The translations under genes were made by a program, and so were the position numbers. A stretch of DNA of 34,461 bases, taken from the NCBI GenBank assembly GCA_028866355.1, contig JAGWIH010000002.1, positions 1 through 34,461 of the forward strand. The letters are read 5' to 3'. Below, in pieces: positions 18,626 through 34,193 of this stretch. This DNA is from Alphaproteobacteria bacterium (lineage in GTDB: Bacteria > Pseudomonadota > Alphaproteobacteria > ATCC43930 > CGMCC-115725). A model generated the notes under the pieces. That model made no database searches, was not told the origin of the DNA, and saw only the letters and a list, made by a program, of their open reading frames with translations. Every line of letters starts with the position of its first letter. Within the stretch, counting starts at the first letter, position 1.

Positions 18626-18639
18626 TTGATCCAGGTCAA
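18626..18639. promoter_or_regulatory. Candidate FNR/FixK box upstream of the Cyc2-like operon
   Basis: TTGATCCAGGTCAA matches TTGAY-N4-RTCAA; about 94 nt upstream of ATG 18733. Confidence 0.75.
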
Positions 18640-18732
18640 TGCGGAAGGGTCTCTTAATCCGGTTTGTTACTTGCTATGATCTGGTACCGGTCATGTCAGA
18701 TGGGATCGATTCACCTCGGGGCGGGAGGTCGA

Positions 18733-20088
18733 ATGGTCGTCGAACTGAATTTTCTCCGGCGCATGGCTGTTCCGGCGGCATTCGCCGCGTTCGCTCTACT
18801 CCTCGCCGTACCGAGCGCGATGGCCTTGCCGAGCTATGCGCGGCAAACCGGACAACAATGCGCCGCTTGTCATAACGGATTTCCGGAGCTGACGCCCTAT
18901 GGCCGGCTTTTCAAACTGAACGGTTATGTCTTCGGCGGCGGCCAGTCGGACCTGCCGCCGCTCGCGGCGATGATCGTCGAAGATTATACGCACACGCAGG
19001 CCGGCCAATCGGGCGGCGCTGCGGCGCATTACGGACCTAACAACAATTTCTCGCTGAATACGGCCAGCCTCTTTTACGGCGGACGAATCCTCGGCGACTA
19101 TGGACTCGGCGCCTTCGCGCAGATCACCTACAACGATCCGTCACGCAGCTTCCATTGGGATAACACCGACGTTCGCTGGGCGCACGCGACCACGATTGAG
19201 GATCATGAGATCGTCTTCGGCGTCAGCGTCAACAACAACCCGTCGATGTCCGACGTGTGGAACACGACACCGGCGTGGCGCTATCCCTTTCAAAGCTCCA
19301 GCTTGGCGCCGACGCCGGCGAACAAGACGATTATCGAGGGCGCCTATTCGCAACAGGTGTTGGGCGCGAGCGCCTATGCGTTCTGGAACCGGCTGGTCTA
19401 TGCCGAGGCTGGCGCCTATCACACGCTGCCGCCGGATGCCATTTCCGCACTTGGCATCGCGGAGAGCGGCAGCGACTCGTTCAGCGGTTTGGCGCCATAC
19501 TGGCGCCTGGCGCTGCAACCGCAATGGGGGCCGAACGCGCTCGAGATCGGTACCTTCGGGATGGCCGCGAACATCAATCCGGGTCGCGTGACCGGCTTCG
19601 GCACGGACAACAAGACCGATCTCGGCTTCGACGCGCAGTATCAATATCTGACCGACGAGCACAGCATCTCGGCGCAGGCGTCCTGGATCAGTGAACACCA
19701 GCACTTGAACTCGACGTTCACCCAGGCCGGCTCGTCGTTCCTCAATGACCAGCTGCACAGCTTCAACGCCAAGACGACCTATTCCTACGAGCAGACTTAT
19801 TACGGCACGCTGGCCTACTCGCGGATCCAGGGTTCGGGCGATCCGACGCTCTATGCTTCGAGTGCGCCGACGGCCGGTAGCCCAAACAGCGACTGGTGGA
19901 CGGCCGAAGTCGCCTACATGCCGTTCAACCACGGCGGACCGAGTTTCTGGCCGTGGCTCAACATGAAGCTCGGCTTGCAGTATATTTGGTACACGAAGTT
20001 CAACGGCGCCTCGAGCAACTATGACGGCAACGGCCGCAACGCGAGCGACAACAACACGCTGTACGCGTACGTCTGGTTCGCGTTCTGA
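18733..20088 (+). CDS. Cyc2-like outer-membrane protein: N-terminal monoheme cytochrome c motif fused to beta-barrel porin
   Basis: ATG 18733 with GGGAGG upstream; signal peptide ending 'PSAMA'; 'LPSYARQTGQQCAACHNGFPELTPYGRLFKLNGYVF' (single CxxCH at 18859-18873); long alternating amphipathic segments; C-terminus '...LYAYVWFAF' with terminal Phe as in OMPs. Confidence 0.75.
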   Translation: MVVELNFLRRMAVPAAFAAFALLLAVPSAMALPSYARQTGQQCAACHNGFPELTPYGRLFKLNGYVFGGGQSDLPPLAAMIVEDYTHTQAGQSGGAAAHYGPNNNFSLNTASLFYGGRILGDYGLGAFAQITYNDPSRSFHWDNTDVRWAHATTIEDHEIVFGVSVNNNPSMSDVWNTTPAWRYPFQSSSLAPTPANKTIIEGAYSQQVLGASAYAFWNRLVYAEAGAYHTLPPDAISALGIAESGSDSFSGLAPYWRLALQPQWGPNALEIGTFGMAANINPGRVTGFGTDNKTDLGFDAQYQYLTDEHSISAQASWISEHQHLNSTFTQAGSSFLNDQLHSFNAKTTYSYEQTYYGTLAYSRIQGSGDPTLYASSAPTAGSPNSDWWTAEVAYMPFNHGGPSFWPWLNMKLGLQYIWYTKFNGASSNYDGNGRNASDNNTLYAYVWFAF

Positions 20089-21081: not shown

Positions 21082-21288
21082 AGGATCGGTGTGCGGCGAG
21101 CCGCTGGCGTACCACAGCGGCCGTTTGAACGCGCGAATATGTCGGCAACCCCGGCCGTTCACCGCGCGCCGCCGCTGTCGTAAGATAGGACCCCCGGGAC
21201 GATCCGTCGCGGAACGGCTCGAATCGCATGCGGCGTTCGCGGCCGGACATGCGATGCTCGACGGTCACCTGCATAAGACCTAGTGGTG

Positions 21289-22800
21289 ATGACGTTGAAA
21301 TCGAAAGAGCCAATCGCTGGACGCAAGCCGTCCGATGATGCCTATCGCCTGCTGTTCGAGGCGGCGGCAATCGGCATCAACTGGAGCGAGCCCGACGGAC
21401 GATTGATCGAGGCCAATCAACATTTCTGCGCGCTGGTCGGCTACGAGCACGATGAATTGATGTCGCGGCGCGTTGAAGATATCACCCATCCAGATGACGT
21501 GGCTGAAGACCGGCGACAAATTGCGCGACTGCTGTCTGGCGCGTGTAGCAGCTACATCGTTGAGAAACGTTACGTCCGCAAAGACGGGACGGTGATTCCG
21601 GCTCGAACAACCTCTTCGCTAATGCGCGGGCGCAGTCCGCGCCGCATCGCTGTCGTCGAAGATCTGCGCCCGCAACTGAAGGCGATGAACGCGCAGCGCG
21701 AAAGCGCTGCACGCCTCAAAAGCATCCTCGACGCGGTGCCCGATGCCATGATTGTCATCGACGAGCGCGGGGCCATCGAAACATTCAGCCCGTCTGCCGA
21801 GGCGATGTTCGGATTTTCCGCCGCTGAGGTCGTGGGGCAGAACGTCAACATCCTGATGCCCTCGCCCTATCGCGAACAACATGATGGATATCTGGAGCGC
21901 TATCGAAAAACCGGCGAGCGGCACATCATTGGCATCGGTCGCGTCGTCACGGGCCAGCGCAAGGACGGCACGACGTTTCCGATGGAGTTGTCGGTCGGCG
22001 AGGCGATTGCCGGTGATGCACGGCGCTTCACCGGATTCGTTAGGGATCTGACCGAACGTGAACGATCCGAGCGTCGTATCGACCAGCTTCAGGCCGAGCT
22101 CATGCATGTCGCGCGGCTTGGAGAGCTTGGGCAGATGGGCGCTGCATTGGCGCACGAACTCAATCAGCCGCTGGCCGCGATCGTCAATTATCTCCTGGCG
22201 GCGCGGCGGTTACTCCAATCCGTGCCCGAGGCGCCGGCGCGCATCGGCGAGGCCATGGAAAAGGCGGCGGCCCAAGCCGATCGCGCCGGACAGGTGATTC
22301 GCCGCCTGCGCGAGTTTGTCGCCCGGGGCGAGACCGAGCGCCGCGAAGAAAACGTCAACGCACTGATCGAGGAAGCGGCCGCTTTGGCATTGGTCGGCGC
22401 CAAAAGCGCCGGCGTCACGACGCGGCTCATGTTGCGGCCGGACCTACCGCTCGTTTTGGTCGACAAGGTGCAGATCCAGCAGGTTTTGCTCAATCTGATT
22501 CGCAATGCACTCGAGGCGATGGATTCGAGCGACGAGCGCGTTTTAACCGTCGAAGCTGCGGCCGCCGACGGAATGGTGACCGTGACGGTCGCCGATACGG
22601 GGCCGGGCCTGTCGGCCGAGGTCGCGCAGAATCTGTTCCAGCCCTTCGTCACCACCAAGGCTCGCGGCATGGGCGTCGGCCTGTCAATCTGCCGGTCGAT
22701 TATCGAAGCGCATGGCGGTCGCATCTGGGCATCGCCGCGCACCGGCGGCGGCACGAATTTCGCCTTCACCGTACCGTTCGAGTTGCGAGGGCAGCCATGA
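21289..22800 (+). CDS. fixL: FixL-type oxygen-sensing PAS histidine kinase
   Basis: Two PAS regions; second has 'GQNVNILMPSPYREQHDGYLERYRKTGERHIIGIGRVVTGQRKDGTTFPMELSVGE', resembling the FixL heme-PAS; H-box 'ALAHELNQPLAAIVNYLLAARR'; HATPase C-terminus. ORF-track start 21283 is GTG; ATG at 21289. Confidence 0.92.
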   Translation: MTLKSKEPIAGRKPSDDAYRLLFEAAAIGINWSEPDGRLIEANQHFCALVGYEHDELMSRRVEDITHPDDVAEDRRQIARLLSGACSSYIVEKRYVRKDGTVIPARTTSSLMRGRSPRRIAVVEDLRPQLKAMNAQRESAARLKSILDAVPDAMIVIDERGAIETFSPSAEAMFGFSAAEVVGQNVNILMPSPYREQHDGYLERYRKTGERHIIGIGRVVTGQRKDGTTFPMELSVGEAIAGDARRFTGFVRDLTERERSERRIDQLQAELMHVARLGELGQMGAALAHELNQPLAAIVNYLLAARRLLQSVPEAPARIGEAMEKAAAQADRAGQVIRRLREFVARGETERREENVNALIEEAAALALVGAKSAGVTTRLMLRPDLPLVLVDKVQIQQVLLNLIRNALEAMDSSDERVLTVEAAAADGMVTVTVADTGPGLSAEVAQNLFQPFVTTKARGMGVGLSICRSIIEAHGGRIWASPRTGGGTNFAFTVPFELRGQP

Positions 22801-23405
22801 CCGACGATGCGACAATCTTCATCCTCGACGACGACGATGCGGTGCGCGATTCGCTCACGATGTTGGTCGAAAGCGCAGGCTACAAGGCCGAGGCGTTCGC
22901 CGCGTGCCGGGCGTTTCTCGCCCGGCCGCCACTTCCACCGCATGCGTGCCTGCTGCTTGATATTCACATGCCGGAAATGAGCGGACTACAGCTGCAAGAC
23001 GAGATGGCGCGGCGCGGCCTTAAGCTGCCGGTGATCGTGATGACCGGGCAAGCCGACGTGCCGGTTGCCGTGCGCGCGATGAAGGCCGGCGCGCGCGATT
23101 TCATCGAAAAGCCGTTTTCCGATGAAGTCATCCTCGACAGCATCCGCAATGCCCTGGCGCCGGCCGCAACACCGTCTGGTGATCCGGCCGTCGCGAAGCG
23201 CATCGCTGAACTGACGCCGCGTGAACATGACGTGATGTTGCAGATGGTCGCGGGCAATCCGAACAAGGTCACCGCCTATAATCTCGGCATCAGCCCGCGC
23301 ACGGTCGAAATCCACCGGGCGCGCGTAATGGAAAAGATGGCGGCACGCAGCCTGTCCGAGCTCGTGCGGATGGTGCTCGCTGCCGGCGTCGATCCGGCGA
23401 AATAG
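22797..23405 (+). CDS. fixJ: FixJ-type response regulator (receiver + LuxR HTH)
   Basis: 'TIFILDDDDAVRDSLTMLVESAGYKAEAF', 'LLLDIHMPEMSGLQLQ', 'MTGQADVPVAVRAMKAGARDFIEKPF', HTH 'LTPREHDVMLQMVAGNPNKVTAYNLGISPRTVEIHRARVMEKM'; ATGA overlap with fixL. Confidence 0.94.
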   Translation: MTDDATIFILDDDDAVRDSLTMLVESAGYKAEAFAACRAFLARPPLPPHACLLLDIHMPEMSGLQLQDEMARRGLKLPVIVMTGQADVPVAVRAMKAGARDFIEKPFSDEVILDSIRNALAPAATPSGDPAVAKRIAELTPREHDVMLQMVAGNPNKVTAYNLGISPRTVEIHRARVMEKMAARSLSELVRMVLAAGVDPAK

Positions 23406-24781: not shown

Positions 24782-25264
24782 TCACCCAACCAGCGGCCGC
24801 AGCGCCGGATGGCGCTCGACCACATGAAGATTCTCGAGTAGGCCATCGAGCCCCAAGACGTGGCCCGCGTTGTGGGCCATCAGGTAGACGATGACCGTCG
24901 CGTAGACGAGATGGAAGTCGACAAAGAGATTGAGATGATTCTCGATGAACGGCCAATCCATGTGCGCGAAATGGTACGTAAGCATCAACAGAATGCCGAA
25001 CGGGCCGCTGACGCGCACCAGGAGGCCCGAGACCAGAGACAGGCCGATCAGCAGGTGCCCCCACTTCATCAGGAAATTGGTGAATGGCAGAACCGCGGGC
25101 GCGGCAAACGTCGCGAAGAAATCGTGGAAGGTCACGACGTGATTGAGAAAGCCTGCCGCGCTGTAATTTTCCCAAATCTGCCACGTACCGGCATAGAGAA
25201 AAGTCCAGCCGACGAGAATGCGTAGGGCGACAGTGACGCCTTTATCGAGTGTGGCGGTATTCAT
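24782..25264 (-). CDS. DoxX/DoxD-like integral membrane protein
   Basis: 'ALRILVGWTFLYAGTWQIWENYSAAGFLNHV...LPFTNFLMKWGHLLIGLSLVSGLLVRVSGPFGILLMLTYHFAHMDWP' multi-TM DoxX-like pattern. Confidence 0.75.
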   Translation of the reverse strand: MNTATLDKGVTVALRILVGWTFLYAGTWQIWENYSAAGFLNHVVTFHDFFATFAAPAVLPFTNFLMKWGHLLIGLSLVSGLLVRVSGPFGILLMLTYHFAHMDWPFIENHLNLFVDFHLVYATVIVYLMAHNAGHVLGLDGLLENLHVVERHPALRPLVG

Positions 25265-25320: not shown

Positions 25321-25334
25321 TTGACCTACGTCAA
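25321..25334. promoter_or_regulatory. Candidate FNR/FixK box upstream of DoxX-like/USP operon
   Basis: TTGACCTACGTCAA, both 5-bp arms perfect; 57 nt upstream of ATG 25264; overlaps the stop codon (25331-25333) of the receiver gene. Confidence 0.72.
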
Positions 25335-25711
25335 GCCGCCAGCGCATTTTCGATCGCGGCCAGCAACGGCGCTTCGCCAACGGGCTTTTCGAGGAAGGCG
25401 GCAACGCCGAGCGCATGAGCGCGCGCGCTGATGGTCGGATCGGCGCCGCCGGTGATGAGGATCACGGGCATATGCAGCGCGGCGCCCTTCGGTGATGCCA
25501 GGAACTCGAGGCCGCTCGTGCCGGGGAGGTGATGGTCGAGAATGAGACACGCGTTGGCACGCGCTCGATATGCGCGTGTGAATTCGGCCGTCGACGCGAA
25601 CGCCGACACATCGAATCCATGCGATTCAAGCAGGAAGGTGAGCGAGTCGCGGACCGCGTCGTCGTCGTCGACCAGATAGATCATCGGTTTGTCTTTCACG
25701 GCAAATACCAT
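25331..25711 (-). CDS. Stand-alone receiver-domain protein, FixJ-receiver-like
   Basis: 'MIYLVDDDDAVRDSLTFLLESHGFDVSAF...ACLILDHHLPGTSGLEFL...VILITGG...AFLEKPVGEAPLLAAIENALAA'; ends right after the receiver fold, no HTH. Confidence 0.9.
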   Translation of the reverse strand: MVFAVKDKPMIYLVDDDDAVRDSLTFLLESHGFDVSAFASTAEFTRAYRARANACLILDHHLPGTSGLEFLASPKGAALHMPVILITGGADPTISARAHALGVAAFLEKPVGEAPLLAAIENALAA

Positions 25712-25722
25712 CTTCGCCGTAT

Positions 25723-26475
25723 TCAGTCGTCTTCGTCGGCGGCGCCATCGGCCAGTTCCGCAAGCGCATCGCGATCGAGGATGTAGACCTTGCTCGATCC
25801 GTTTATGGCGATGCAGCCGCTGCCTTTGAGAACGGTGAAGACCCGGCTCACCGTTTCGGTCGTCAGGCCGAGAAAATCTGCGATATCGGTTCGCGTCATC
25901 GGCAGGTCGATCGAATCGTCGTCGTTGGGTTGCCGCCGGAACAACGACAGCAGGAACGAGGCGACGCGCTCGTGCGCCGTCTTGCGGCCAAGCAGCACCA
26001 TTTGGTCCTGGGCCGCTGTAAGGTCGCGGGTGATCGCATCAAGGAACTGGCGCTCGACGCCCGGAAATTCGGCAAAAGCGTGCTCAAGCTGCCGTCGCGA
26101 ACAGCGGCAGACGGTGACCGACGAAACCGCTTCGGCGCTGGCCGTGTATCTATCATTGGGTGCGAAGCCGAACATATCGCCTGGAACCAAGAAGCCGACA
26201 ATCTGCCGCCGGCCATCAGCGAGCAGTTTGAACAGCTTCACGACCCCGGCGACGACGGTGAAGACGTTCAGCGCCGGCTCGCCCTCGTCGACAAAGGCGG
26301 TGCCCGCCGCGATCGTCTGCGACGTCCGCGTCATCGCATAGCGTTCGAGCTCGCTGGTGCGGACCGTAGCGCATGCGTCGTGTCGTCCCGGGCAGGCTTC
26401 GCAGCGGTTGGCCCGTGTCGCCGGCAGAATGACTGTGGCGGGGATGCTTTGGCGAACGGCGGCAGCAAGCGGCAT
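25723..26475 (-). CDS. Crp/Fnr family regulator, FnrN/FixK-type with N-terminal cysteine cluster
   Basis: 'RCEACPGRHDACATV' (C-x2-C-x6-C) plus an internal Cys pair 'VTVCRCSRRQLEHAF'; cNMP-like fold; HTH 'MTRTDIADFLGLTTETVSRVFTVLKGSGCI'. ATG 26475 preferred (26511 is TTG). Confidence 0.92.
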   Translation of the reverse strand: MPLAAAVRQSIPATVILPATRANRCEACPGRHDACATVRTSELERYAMTRTSQTIAAGTAFVDEGEPALNVFTVVAGVVKLFKLLADGRRQIVGFLVPGDMFGFAPNDRYTASAEAVSSVTVCRCSRRQLEHAFAEFPGVERQFLDAITRDLTAAQDQMVLLGRKTAHERVASFLLSLFRRQPNDDDSIDLPMTRTDIADFLGLTTETVSRVFTVLKGSGCIAINGSSKVYILDRDALAELADGAADEDD

Positions 26476-26562
26476 CGGCGTCTCCCAGACTATGGACGGC
26501 ACGCGGTGCAATCCTTCGGTCGCAGAGATACCTGGGTCGGTCCGAACGCGAAATTCGGTGAT

Positions 26563-26584
26563 ATACGTAAGGGATTCTACGTAG
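26563..26584. promoter_or_regulatory. Candidate FixJ-binding element upstream of the Fnr-type gene
   Basis: Minus-strand reading CTACGTAGAATCCCTTACGTAT: two TACGTA hexamers 8 nt apart; resembles FixJ~P sites of fixK promoters (GTAMGTAG-like core). About 88 nt upstream of ATG 26475. Confidence 0.6.
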
Positions 26585-26613
26585 CCCGCGGCGCAACGCC
26601 GCCGTATTCCGGC

Positions 26614-26946
26614 TTAGCGCAGGGAGCTGCGGACAATGTCGGCCCGCGCGCGACCGGTAAATCGGGCAATTCTGGCGTCGAGTTCATCCCGGGTCACGGG
26701 CACGCCGTTGGCAGCGAGATCTTTCATCACACGGGTTGTGACCGACCGTGAATCGTCGTGGGCGACTTGGCTCTCGACCAGATCTTTGACGTAGGCGGCG
26801 GCCCGGCTGCCGGAAAACCCGATGCGCGCCGCCGCCCAACGGGCGAGCAACGCGTTGCGCCGCGCCGTAACCTTGAAGGCCAACTCCTGGTCAAGGGCGA
26901 ATTTCCGCTCGAACGCGCGCTCGCGCTCGTCATTGAAGGTATTCAT
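26614..26946 (-). CDS. DUF1476 family protein (F1-ATPase inhibitor zeta subunit-like)
   Basis: From ATG 26946: MNTFNDERERAFERKFALDQELAFKVTARRNALLARWAAARIGFSGSRAAAYVKDLVES..., matching the DUF1476 N-terminal pattern. Confidence 0.85.
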   Translation of the reverse strand: MNTFNDERERAFERKFALDQELAFKVTARRNALLARWAAARIGFSGSRAAAYVKDLVESQVAHDDSRSVTTRVMKDLAANGVPVTRDELDARIARFTGRARADIVRSSLR

Positions 26947-26979: not shown

Positions 26980-26993
26980 TTGATCCATGTCAA
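26980..26993. promoter_or_regulatory. Candidate FNR/FixK box upstream of the DUF1476 gene
   Basis: TTGATCCATGTCAA; 34 nt upstream of ATG 26946. Confidence 0.72.
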
Positions 26994-31322: not shown

Positions 31323-33278
31323 TCAATGCCCTCCGCCGACGGCGACGCCACCGGGCGCGTCGAAAATATCGGGCGTCGGCCGGCCTTCGACGATGATCAG
31401 GCCGGACAGGCCCCGCTCCATGCGCGCGAGCGCGTGATCCACCACGACATAACGGCCCGGCACCGGCATCTTGAAGTCGACAACGACGGCGCCGCCCGGA
31501 GGCACCGGCACGGTCTGGATGCCGCGCAACGGCGGGTTGGTCAGGCCGCCGAAATCGTAGACCTTGTCGAAGATCGTGCCGATGACGTGGAAGGAAGAGG
31601 TGAAGTTCGGGCCGCCGACGCCGAAGAAGATGCGGGCGGTTTCGCCTTTCTTCATCACCATCGGATGGAGCGTCGTCAGCGCACCGACCGAACCGTTGAA
31701 GACGAAATATTCCGGATGCTCGGCGAGAAGTTTTTCGACGCTGAACTCCTGGCTGCCGTGCTGTCCGAACGGCCCGTCGGTATAGATCTCGCCCTGCATG
31801 ACATAGAACTCGTGATCGACCTTGGGCAGTCCGCCTTCCGGCTCGACCAGAATCAATCCATACATGCCGTTGGCGATGTGTTCGGCCACCATCGGCGTCG
31901 CGCAGTGATAGACGAAGAGCCCCGGATAGAGCGCCTTGAACCGGAAGAACTTCTCGCCATTGGGTTCGACTTGCATCGCCGCCGCGCCGCCGCCCGGACC
32001 GGTGACGGCGTGGAAATCGACGGAATGGATCATCGAGCTGTTGGCGTCGTTCTTGAGGTGAACCTCGACCATGTCGCCGACGCGCACGCGGATGAACGGG
32101 CCCGGCACCTTGCCGTTGAACGTCCAATAGTCGTAGGTGGTGCCTTCCGCGAGCCGGCCCTCGACTTCGACGGTCGTCAGGTCGACGCGGACCGAGGTCG
32201 GCTTGCGGTTGCCGATCGGCGGCGGCAGGTCCGTGGGATCGCGCGAGATGTCGGCCTGCGCGACGGTCGCCGGCGCCGGCTTGGCTGTGACGGTGAACTT
32301 GCCCTCCATGCCGGCGAGGCGGTGGCCCGGCGCGCTGCAAAAATAGACGTAGTCTCCGGGTTTGCCGGCCGGCACCACGATCGTCGTGCTGGCGCCTTTG
32401 CCGATGACGCGCGGCGACTTGACGCCCTGATCGGGGAAGGTGATGTCGTGCTCGGCGCCTTCGCCGTTGATGAGCGTGACCTGTACGGTCTGGCCTTCGG
32501 CCGCGGTTAGCGGCGGGTTGACCTTGCCGTCGATTGCGCCGCCGACGCCGATGAAGACCATGCGGCCTTCGGCGATGCCCGATCGCAACGTGTATTTGAC
32601 GTCGGCGACGGCACTCGACGGCGCGGTGGCGGCCGCAGCCGGCTTGGCGTGTGACGCTGGCGGCAACGGTCCGCCCGATACGGCCGCCAGGAACGCGATG
32701 ACATCGTGCCGGTCGGTCTCGGACTTGAGGCCGGGGAAGGGCATGCGGTTGCCGGGCACGACCTTGGCTGGGTCGGCGAGGTAGCCGTCGAGCGTCGCCG
32801 CGTTCCAGGTGATGCCGGCATGCTTCATCGCGTCCGAGTAATTGAATCCGTCGAGCGAGCCCGCGTGACGGCCAATCAACTTGGCCAGACTGGGTCCAAT
32901 CAGCGTCTTGCCCGGTTCGAGCGAATGGCACGCCTGGCATTTCCGGAAGACGCGGCGGCCGTTCTCGACGTCGCCGTTATCGGCCGCGACCGCGGTGGCG
33001 ACCAGCTTAACCGGCGGCACGGCAGCGGTCGTGCCATCTGTCAGCGAGCCGGCGTGCAGATGCGAACCGTCGATATCGGCCAGCGCGACCTGAACCGGCA
33101 ACGGCGCCGGCGGTGGTGAGACCGCGACGGGCGTCGCCGGTGGCGCCGCGGGCATTGCCGGCGCTGTTGCGACAGTGGCCGACGCATCGGCCGTGCGCGC
33201 GCCGGGCGGGTGCGCCGCGAGAACGGCGATCACGGCGCCGGCCGTGATGGCGGCGAAGACGAGAAAACCTTTGTTCAT
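31323..33278 (-). CDS. nirK: Multidomain copper nitrite reductase: N-terminal cytochrome c + cupredoxin + NirK
   Basis: Signal/anchor; 'GRRVFRKCQACHSLEPGKTLIGPSLAKLIGRHAGS' (cyt c); 'AEHDITFPDQGV...GDYVYFCSAPGHRLAGMEGKFTV' (cupredoxin); NirK 'IHSVDFHAVTGPGGGAAAMQVEPNGEKFFRFKALYPGLFVYHCATPMVAEHIANGMYGLILVEPEGGLP...FHVIGTIFDKVYDFGG'. Confidence 0.93.
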   Translation of the reverse strand: MNKGFLVFAAITAGAVIAVLAAHPPGARTADASATVATAPAMPAAPPATPVAVSPPPAPLPVQVALADIDGSHLHAGSLTDGTTAAVPPVKLVATAVAADNGDVENGRRVFRKCQACHSLEPGKTLIGPSLAKLIGRHAGSLDGFNYSDAMKHAGITWNAATLDGYLADPAKVVPGNRMPFPGLKSETDRHDVIAFLAAVSGGPLPPASHAKPAAAATAPSSAVADVKYTLRSGIAEGRMVFIGVGGAIDGKVNPPLTAAEGQTVQVTLINGEGAEHDITFPDQGVKSPRVIGKGASTTIVVPAGKPGDYVYFCSAPGHRLAGMEGKFTVTAKPAPATVAQADISRDPTDLPPPIGNRKPTSVRVDLTTVEVEGRLAEGTTYDYWTFNGKVPGPFIRVRVGDMVEVHLKNDANSSMIHSVDFHAVTGPGGGAAAMQVEPNGEKFFRFKALYPGLFVYHCATPMVAEHIANGMYGLILVEPEGGLPKVDHEFYVMQGEIYTDGPFGQHGSQEFSVEKLLAEHPEYFVFNGSVGALTTLHPMVMKKGETARIFFGVGGPNFTSSFHVIGTIFDKVYDFGGLTNPPLRGIQTVPVPPGGAVVVDFKMPVPGRYVVVDHALARMERGLSGLIIVEGRPTPDIFDAPGGVAVGGGH

Positions 33279-33338: not shown

Positions 33339-33352
33339 TTGATTTGGGTCAA
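33339..33352. promoter_or_regulatory. Candidate FNR/FixK box upstream of nirK
   Basis: TTGATTTGGGTCAA; 61 nt upstream of nirK ATG 33278 and 125 nt upstream of the divergent ORF at 33477. Confidence 0.75.
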
Positions 33353-33386
33353 TCGGCTGCGGTCAAGAACACCTAGGGAAATTACT

Positions 33387-33402
33387 TACGGACGTTTCCG
33401 TA
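33387..33402. repeat. Perfect short inverted repeat TACGGA-CGTT-TCCGTA in the nirK/33477 divergent region
   Basis: 6-bp perfect arms, 4-nt spacer, read directly from the sequence. Confidence 0.6.
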
Positions 33403-33476: not shown

Positions 33477-33698
33477 ATGTCATCGCTGGTTGCACTCGAC
33501 ATCACGCAATTGAACGCGCTGCGTGCGAAGATTGCCGAATTGGAAGGCGAACCGCCGCCGGTCCAAAGCCGCAAGCTGAATCTGCTGACGGCGCTCCGAC
33601 GCGAGGAAAAATCCCTGCGATGCTGCATGCGCCGTCTCGGCCATAAGATTGGGCAACCCGTCGCCGTCAAGTCCCCGGCATCCAAGCGCGCCGCTTGA
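33477..33698 (+). CDS. Hypothetical small basic protein (73 aa)
   Basis: ATG 33477 preceded by GGGAGGAAAAG; MSSLVALDITQLNALRAKIAELEGEPPPVQSRKLNLLTALRREEKSLRCCMRRLGHKIGQPVAVKSPASKRAA. Start chosen over the ORF-track 33210. Confidence 0.6.
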   Translation: MSSLVALDITQLNALRAKIAELEGEPPPVQSRKLNLLTALRREEKSLRCCMRRLGHKIGQPVAVKSPASKRAA

Positions 33699-34179: not shown

Positions 34180-34193
34180 TTGACGTAGATCAA
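34180..34193. promoter_or_regulatory. Candidate FNR/FixK box upstream of second USP gene
   Basis: TTGACGTAGATCAA; followed by GATACT at 34216-34221, near a -10 position if the box is centred at -41.5. Confidence 0.78.

Follow-up and report, generated by a model that had tools for sequence, protein, structure and literature searches.

Our analysis of the window, the whole stretch of 34,461 nucleotides considered here, from an uncultured alphaproteobacterium, indicates that a FixJ operator very probably drives the gene of a four-cysteine Fnr-type regulator, so that FixL, FixJ and a [4Fe-4S] FNR would place two oxygen sensors in series. The candidate FixJ box, TACGTAGAATCCCTTACGTA (26564–26583, minus strand; TACGTAAGGGATTCTACGTA on the plus strand), is marked by its genome-wide uniqueness and by its conservation upstream of orthologous fnr genes. 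Both of its TACGTA hexamers are perfect and stand 8 nt from each other, as the initial annotation had described, and the distance to the regulator, given there as about 88 nt, is exactly 88 nt to the fnr ATG at 26475 (minus strand). This start codon agrees with the aligned starts in two relatives (G001 and G003). The box sits in the gap between fnr and the gene of the ATPase inhibitor subunit zeta (26614–26946). When up to one mismatch was allowed in the two hexamers, it was the only match in the organism's own 2.41-Mb assembly. At 64% GC, exact matches are expected 0.03 times per genome and 1.6e-6 times in the 139-bp intergenic stretch holding the box. A matrix made from related boxes gives it a score of 34.0, against 11.9 for the next-best site of the window, a score that is partly built in because the training set includes the orthologous boxes, one of them identical. 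The box agrees at 12 of 16 positions with the mapped FixJ site of Sinorhizobium meliloti, TAAGTAATTTCCCTTA. FixJ boxes are characterised as an 18-bp imperfect palindrome; SELEX motifs for FixJ are GTAMGTAG and GTAGTTTCCC (PMC4999443). The columns TA.GTA....CCC.TA are invariant when the window box is aligned with two Sinorhizobium promoters.

Upstream regions of Fnr homologues were drawn from 60 relatives. In every one of the 12 family genomes with a cysteine-type fnr orthologue (G000, G001, G003, G006, G007, G009, G011, G015, G018, G020, G023 and G027), a TAnGTAGAAnCCCTTAnGTA-like box with 0–2 hexamer mismatches lies upstream of that gene. Eight other cysteine-type Fnr homologues (L012, L015–L019, L021, L022) have no box, their best upstream match carrying at least 4 mismatches. 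A scan of the genus with up to 3 mismatches locates the box before fnr in each of the three FixLJ-bearing genomes and returns three further 3-mismatch sites elsewhere. The congener G002, listed as 100% complete, is without FixL, FixJ, the fnr orthologue and the box, all together. Over 37 family genomes, the occurrence of the box with FixL is 16/25 versus 2/12 (Fisher P = 0.013), an association that is blurred by draft assemblies and variant boxes; in G020 (70% complete), boxes are present and FixL was not found. The fixLJ/fnr/zeta neighbourhood is seen, whole or in part, in G001, G003, G006, G007, G011, G015, G023 and G027. A strict-pattern scan of 387 genomes of the class gave matches in 7 genomes, in five of which a Crp/Fnr gene follows the match. 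At one locus (L033) the box precedes a cysteine-less Fnr-type gene.

The regulator (25723–26475, minus strand) is a Crp/Fnr protein of 250 residues with C25, C28 and C35 in a Cx2Cx6C arrangement and a central C123. Alignment to FNR (PDB 8qto) and to FnrN-type homologues shows that these four cysteines are in register with the cluster ligands of FNR. Across genera, none of the 12 box-bearing orthologues has lost any of the four; G011 also has a further boxed gene, which carries the N-terminal cysteine set. All other box-bearing Crp/Fnr genes examined are without this set, and their central cysteine is nearly always gone too; the comparison covered Sinorhizobium, Azospirillum, Agrobacterium, other FixJ-linked loci, further family members and the class-wide scan matches. 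In the phylogenetic tree, the boxed cysteine proteins cluster with other cysteine-type (FnrN-type) ones, and a group of ten boxed proteins is supported at 89/87. The tree places the regulator outside the cysteine-less FixK branch, a deep split supported only at 34/87. From the cysteines an oxygen-sensing [4Fe-4S] cluster is predicted, and we infer that the regulator is of the FnrN/FNR type rather than a FixK. The expectation of an ordinary fixK-type gene thus held in one part only: a Crp/Fnr gene does stand behind the FixJ box, but C25, C28, C35 and C123 are present where a FixK is defined by having no Fe-S cysteines.

The best-surviving alternative, which we regard as unlikely, is an ordinary FixLJ–FixK cascade in which the FixJ site is genuine and the regulator is FixK-like, with cysteines that no longer hold an oxygen-sensing cluster. 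The NCBIfam models for Caulobacter FixK and Rhodobacter FnrL score the protein equally (162.4 and 162.3 bits), the Cx2Cx6C spacing lacks one residue relative to the Cx2Cx7C found in other genera, and the gene occupies the place of fixK in the locus. However, the cysteine spacing of the FNR in the PDB is shorter still, and both the full retention of the four cysteines in the boxed orthologues, against their loss from the FixK-type proteins checked, and the grouping of the regulator in the tree argue for a cysteine-type FNR. In G009, G027 and G018 (L170, L171, L172), the boxed cysteine-type fnr is accompanied by a further gene, FixK-like and without the cysteines, whose own box matches to a varying degree. 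The organism's own assembly is a draft, 85% complete and 6% contaminated, and a separate FixK could therefore be missing from view. In another genome, G388 (L181/L187), two overlapping tandem FixJ-type boxes, TACGTAAAACCCCTTAGGTACAAACCCTTACGTA, lie before a cysteine-less Fnr-type gene.

The initial annotation had located fixLJ about 3–5 kb from the regulator; this is confirmed, and both genes are identified by NCBIfam and PDB matches. FixL (21283–22800, plus strand) has two PAS domains, the second being the FixL heme PAS, followed by the HisKA/HATPase kinase domains. Along its whole extent, the PAS domain at residues 143–270 can be aligned to heme PAS chains of FixL from the PDB (E 2e-48). FixL autokinase activity at low oxygen is established for the FixL family. 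The fixJ gene (22797–23405, plus strand) overlaps the stop codon of fixL and encodes a receiver and a LuxR/FixJ helix–turn–helix (HTH) domain. FixJ matches PDB 5xso at E 1e-47, with the receiver residues D11, D12, D55 and K105, the phospho-acceptor among them, and the helix ISPRTVE.HRA.VM.KM conserved. Its HTH residues, including the recognition helix, are nearly invariant with respect to Sinorhizobium FixJ. The NCBIfam scores of FixL (523 bits, cut-off 850) and FixJ (241.8 bits, cut-off 255) fall short of the curated equivalog thresholds, which the distance of the lineage would lead one to expect; the Fnr score is also below its threshold. Binding of phosphorylated FixJ (FixJ~P) to the fnr box is very probable. 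Recognition of the box by another NarL/FixJ-family response regulator instead of the window FixJ is very improbable. Family genomes do encode several FixJ-like regulators, and FixJ/TtrR-type regulators have similar HTHs; against this, a search of the organism's own genome at E 1e-20 yields only FixJ and an HTH-less receiver (25331–25711), the box resembles the mapped S. meliloti site and has the same downstream element in common with it, and G002 has lost box and FixLJ together.

The anatomy of the promoter follows that of fixK promoters, which have TAAG near -64 and a CSNAATWT element near -33 (PMC4999443). In the window, as in the S. meliloti fixK promoter, the FixJ site is followed by CCNAATTT exactly 25 nt from the start of the box; the element itself, CCGAATTT, occupies 26551–26558 on the minus strand. 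CSNAATWT at +25 is found in 9 of the 12 orthologous fnr promoters, the other 3 deviating from it, and in PfixK of both S. meliloti 1021 and Sinorhizobium 05631. The pSymA fixK promoter of S. meliloti 1021 reads TAAGTAATTTCCCTTAGTGATCTAACCCAATTTC, and the window fnr promoter, for comparison, TACGTAGAATCCCTTACGTATATCACCGAATTTC. By register with S. meliloti PfixK, where TAAG is near -64, a putative -10 hexamer TATCTC is placed at 26525–26530 (minus strand) and the transcription start of fnr is predicted near 26519. Autoregulation of fnr through an FNR box was considered, and TTGAN6TCAA is absent from 26476–26613. The description of the box as two TACGTA hexamers is correct for the window, but the family-wide motif is TAnGTA-GAAn-CCCTTAnGTA plus CSNAATWT at +25. 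The consensus TAnGTAnnnnCCCTTAnGTA combined with CSNAATWT at +25 should be usable for finding FixJ targets, a kind of search that the literature calls hard.

This layout also bears on the sign of regulation. Repression of fnr by FixJ, for example by the unphosphorylated protein as at R. palustris nifHDK, is highly improbable; unphosphorylated FixJ is reported to repress nif promoters, but FixLJ activates R. palustris fixK itself (PMC13327599), and the spacing to the -35-region element in the window matches activated fixK promoters. A chance palindrome without function can practically be dismissed by footprint and uniqueness, since the exact TACGTAN8TACGTA sites found in a few family genomes (L032, L037, L039) lie at unrelated places with unrelated spacers, whereas at the fnr site spacer, position and +25 element are kept from genus to genus. 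These three sites were themselves treated as chance occurrences, with neither a Crp/Fnr gene nor a FixJ relative nearby. Phylogenetic footprinting, PfixK-like anatomy, fixLJ linkage and the joint loss seen in a sister species support the original interpretation of a FixJ box.

The putative targets of the regulator lie close by. Five FNR-type boxes had been noted in the vicinity, and five perfect TTGAN6TCAA sites are present in the window, where 0.26 are expected and none of 100 shuffles reaches five. Genome-wide, TTGAYN4RTCAA has 18 matches and the reversed control 1; of the 18, 5 lie within the 34 kb of the window (P about 4e-6). TTGATCCAGGTCAA (18626–18639) is upstream of a porin-like gene (18664–20088) and a diheme cytochrome operon. 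TTGACCTACGTCAA (25321–25334) precedes a DoxX-like gene (24782–25264), and the equivalent position is occupied in G001 and G003. TTGATCCATGTCAA (26980–26993) is upstream of the zeta gene, TTGATTTGGGTCAA (33339–33352) lies between a nirK-type gene (31323–33278, minus strand) and a small ORF on the plus strand, and TTGACGTAGATCAA (34180–34193) is near the window end. One further genomic box, outside the window, is upstream of a hemA-like gene (L207), named by eye from its sequence. The zeta gene (PF07345; minus strand), the upstream neighbour of fnr, adjoins it in G001, G003, G007 and G023 as well and is near it in G011; low-oxygen control of ATP synthase inhibition through the FNR box of this gene is possible.

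Directly downstream of fnr lies the single-domain response regulator at 25331–25711 (minus strand), which is similar to the FixJ receiver. It neighbours fnr in G001 and G003 too and occupies the place of bll2758/RPA4249/FixT-type genes. An Fe-S-type FixT was considered for this receiver and rejected, as it has one cysteine only.

The product of the nirK-type gene is a copper nitrite reductase of the NirK type with an N-terminal cytochrome c and a cupredoxin domain as fusion partners; G009 and G020 have homologues of nearly its full length. Upstream of it we observed a second FixJ-like site, TAAGTAATTTCCCTAGGTGT (33369–33388, minus strand), which agrees with the S. meliloti site at 14 of 16 positions and scores 11.9, the maximum in 30 Markov-2 nulls being 10.9. 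The homologue in G009 has a stronger box upstream (24.7), and that in G020 has none. Direct control of nirK by FixJ is possible. The small ORF, around 33498–33698 (plus strand; MSSLVALDITQLNALRAKIAELEG...), is divergent from nirK behind the common FNR box, and a vaguely similar small ORF is found behind a FixJ box in G020 (L198).

Sensor, relay, regulator and putative targets are physically linked, as had been proposed, with fixLJ, fnr and the five FNR boxes all inside the window. In the cascade that we favour, the heme-PAS kinase FixL would phosphorylate FixJ at low oxygen. FixJ~P dimers would occupy TAnGTAGAAnCCCTTAnGTA, between about 64 and 45 nt ahead of the transcription start and adjoining the CCGAATTT -35-region element, and would recruit RNA polymerase, so that fnr is transcribed, probably with the downstream response-regulator gene. 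With its four cluster cysteines, FNR should need a [4Fe-4S] cluster, and hence still lower oxygen, before binding DNA. The cluster-bearing protein would then bind the TTGAN6TCAA boxes of the nirK-type, zeta, DoxX, cytochrome and hemA-like genes. The amount of FNR would be set by FixL and its activity by oxygen. The receiver at 25331–25711 would be co-induced with fnr and, in the manner of FixT, may exert feedback on FixL. For this alphaproteobacterial family, it seems reasonably likely that the FixK step is held by a [4Fe-4S] FNR under direct FixJ control, a two-stage oxygen gate, this FNR being the sole FixJ-boxed regulator found in the window's genus.

A comparison with known systems shows both likenesses and differences. 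The S. meliloti pSymA PfixK (TAAGTAATTTCCCTTA) shares the FixJ site, CSNAATWT at exactly +25, the nearby fixLJ and a Crp/Fnr target (PMC4999443). However, S. meliloti FixK is without Fe-S cysteines while the window target has four, and the right half of the window box is fully palindromic (TTACGTA) where the S. meliloti site has TTAGTGA. In Bradyrhizobium and Rhodopseudomonas (bll2758, RPA4249), fixLJ, a single-domain receiver and a Crp/Fnr gene also share one locus, and PfixK of R. palustris carries a GTACGTAG box (PMC13327599, PMC9104804). Their FixK/FixK2 is not described as an Fe-S protein, and gene order and orientation differ from the window. In R. leguminosarum, a FixL-type sensor raises fnrN and FnrN then senses lower oxygen, which is likewise an arrangement of sensors in series, but the path from hFixL through FxkR and FixK to FnrN requires these intermediates and FnrN boxes (PMC7888657). 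In the window, FixJ appears to act on fnr itself, without a FixK step, and the promoter of fnr has no FNR box. The Caulobacter FixLJ circuit also includes a single-domain receiver gene, FixT, with a four-cysteine Fe-S motif in place of the one cysteine of the window receiver (PMC7078487).

Surveys describe fixK as the cysteine-less target of FixJ and place the four-cysteine FNR class outside FixJ control (PMC4999443, PMC2908626). They treat FnrN, which senses oxygen itself, and FixLJ–FixK, in which FixK does not, as separate, with fixK in every fixLJ genome (PMC4999443). The literature searched, the coverage of which is incomplete, yielded no example of an Fe-S FNR controlled directly by FixJ. 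The likeliest reading of the sequence is that the box itself adds to the known FixJ sites, while its coupling to a cysteine-bearing FNR would be a circuit variant not found in that literature. If this is true, the lineage joins FnrN-type and FixLJ systems directly, with no FixK between them. It would be a minimal form, occurring in nature, of the two sensors in series known from R. leguminosarum (PMC7888657), and would allow serial sensing to be tested for whether it sharpens or delays the low-oxygen switch.
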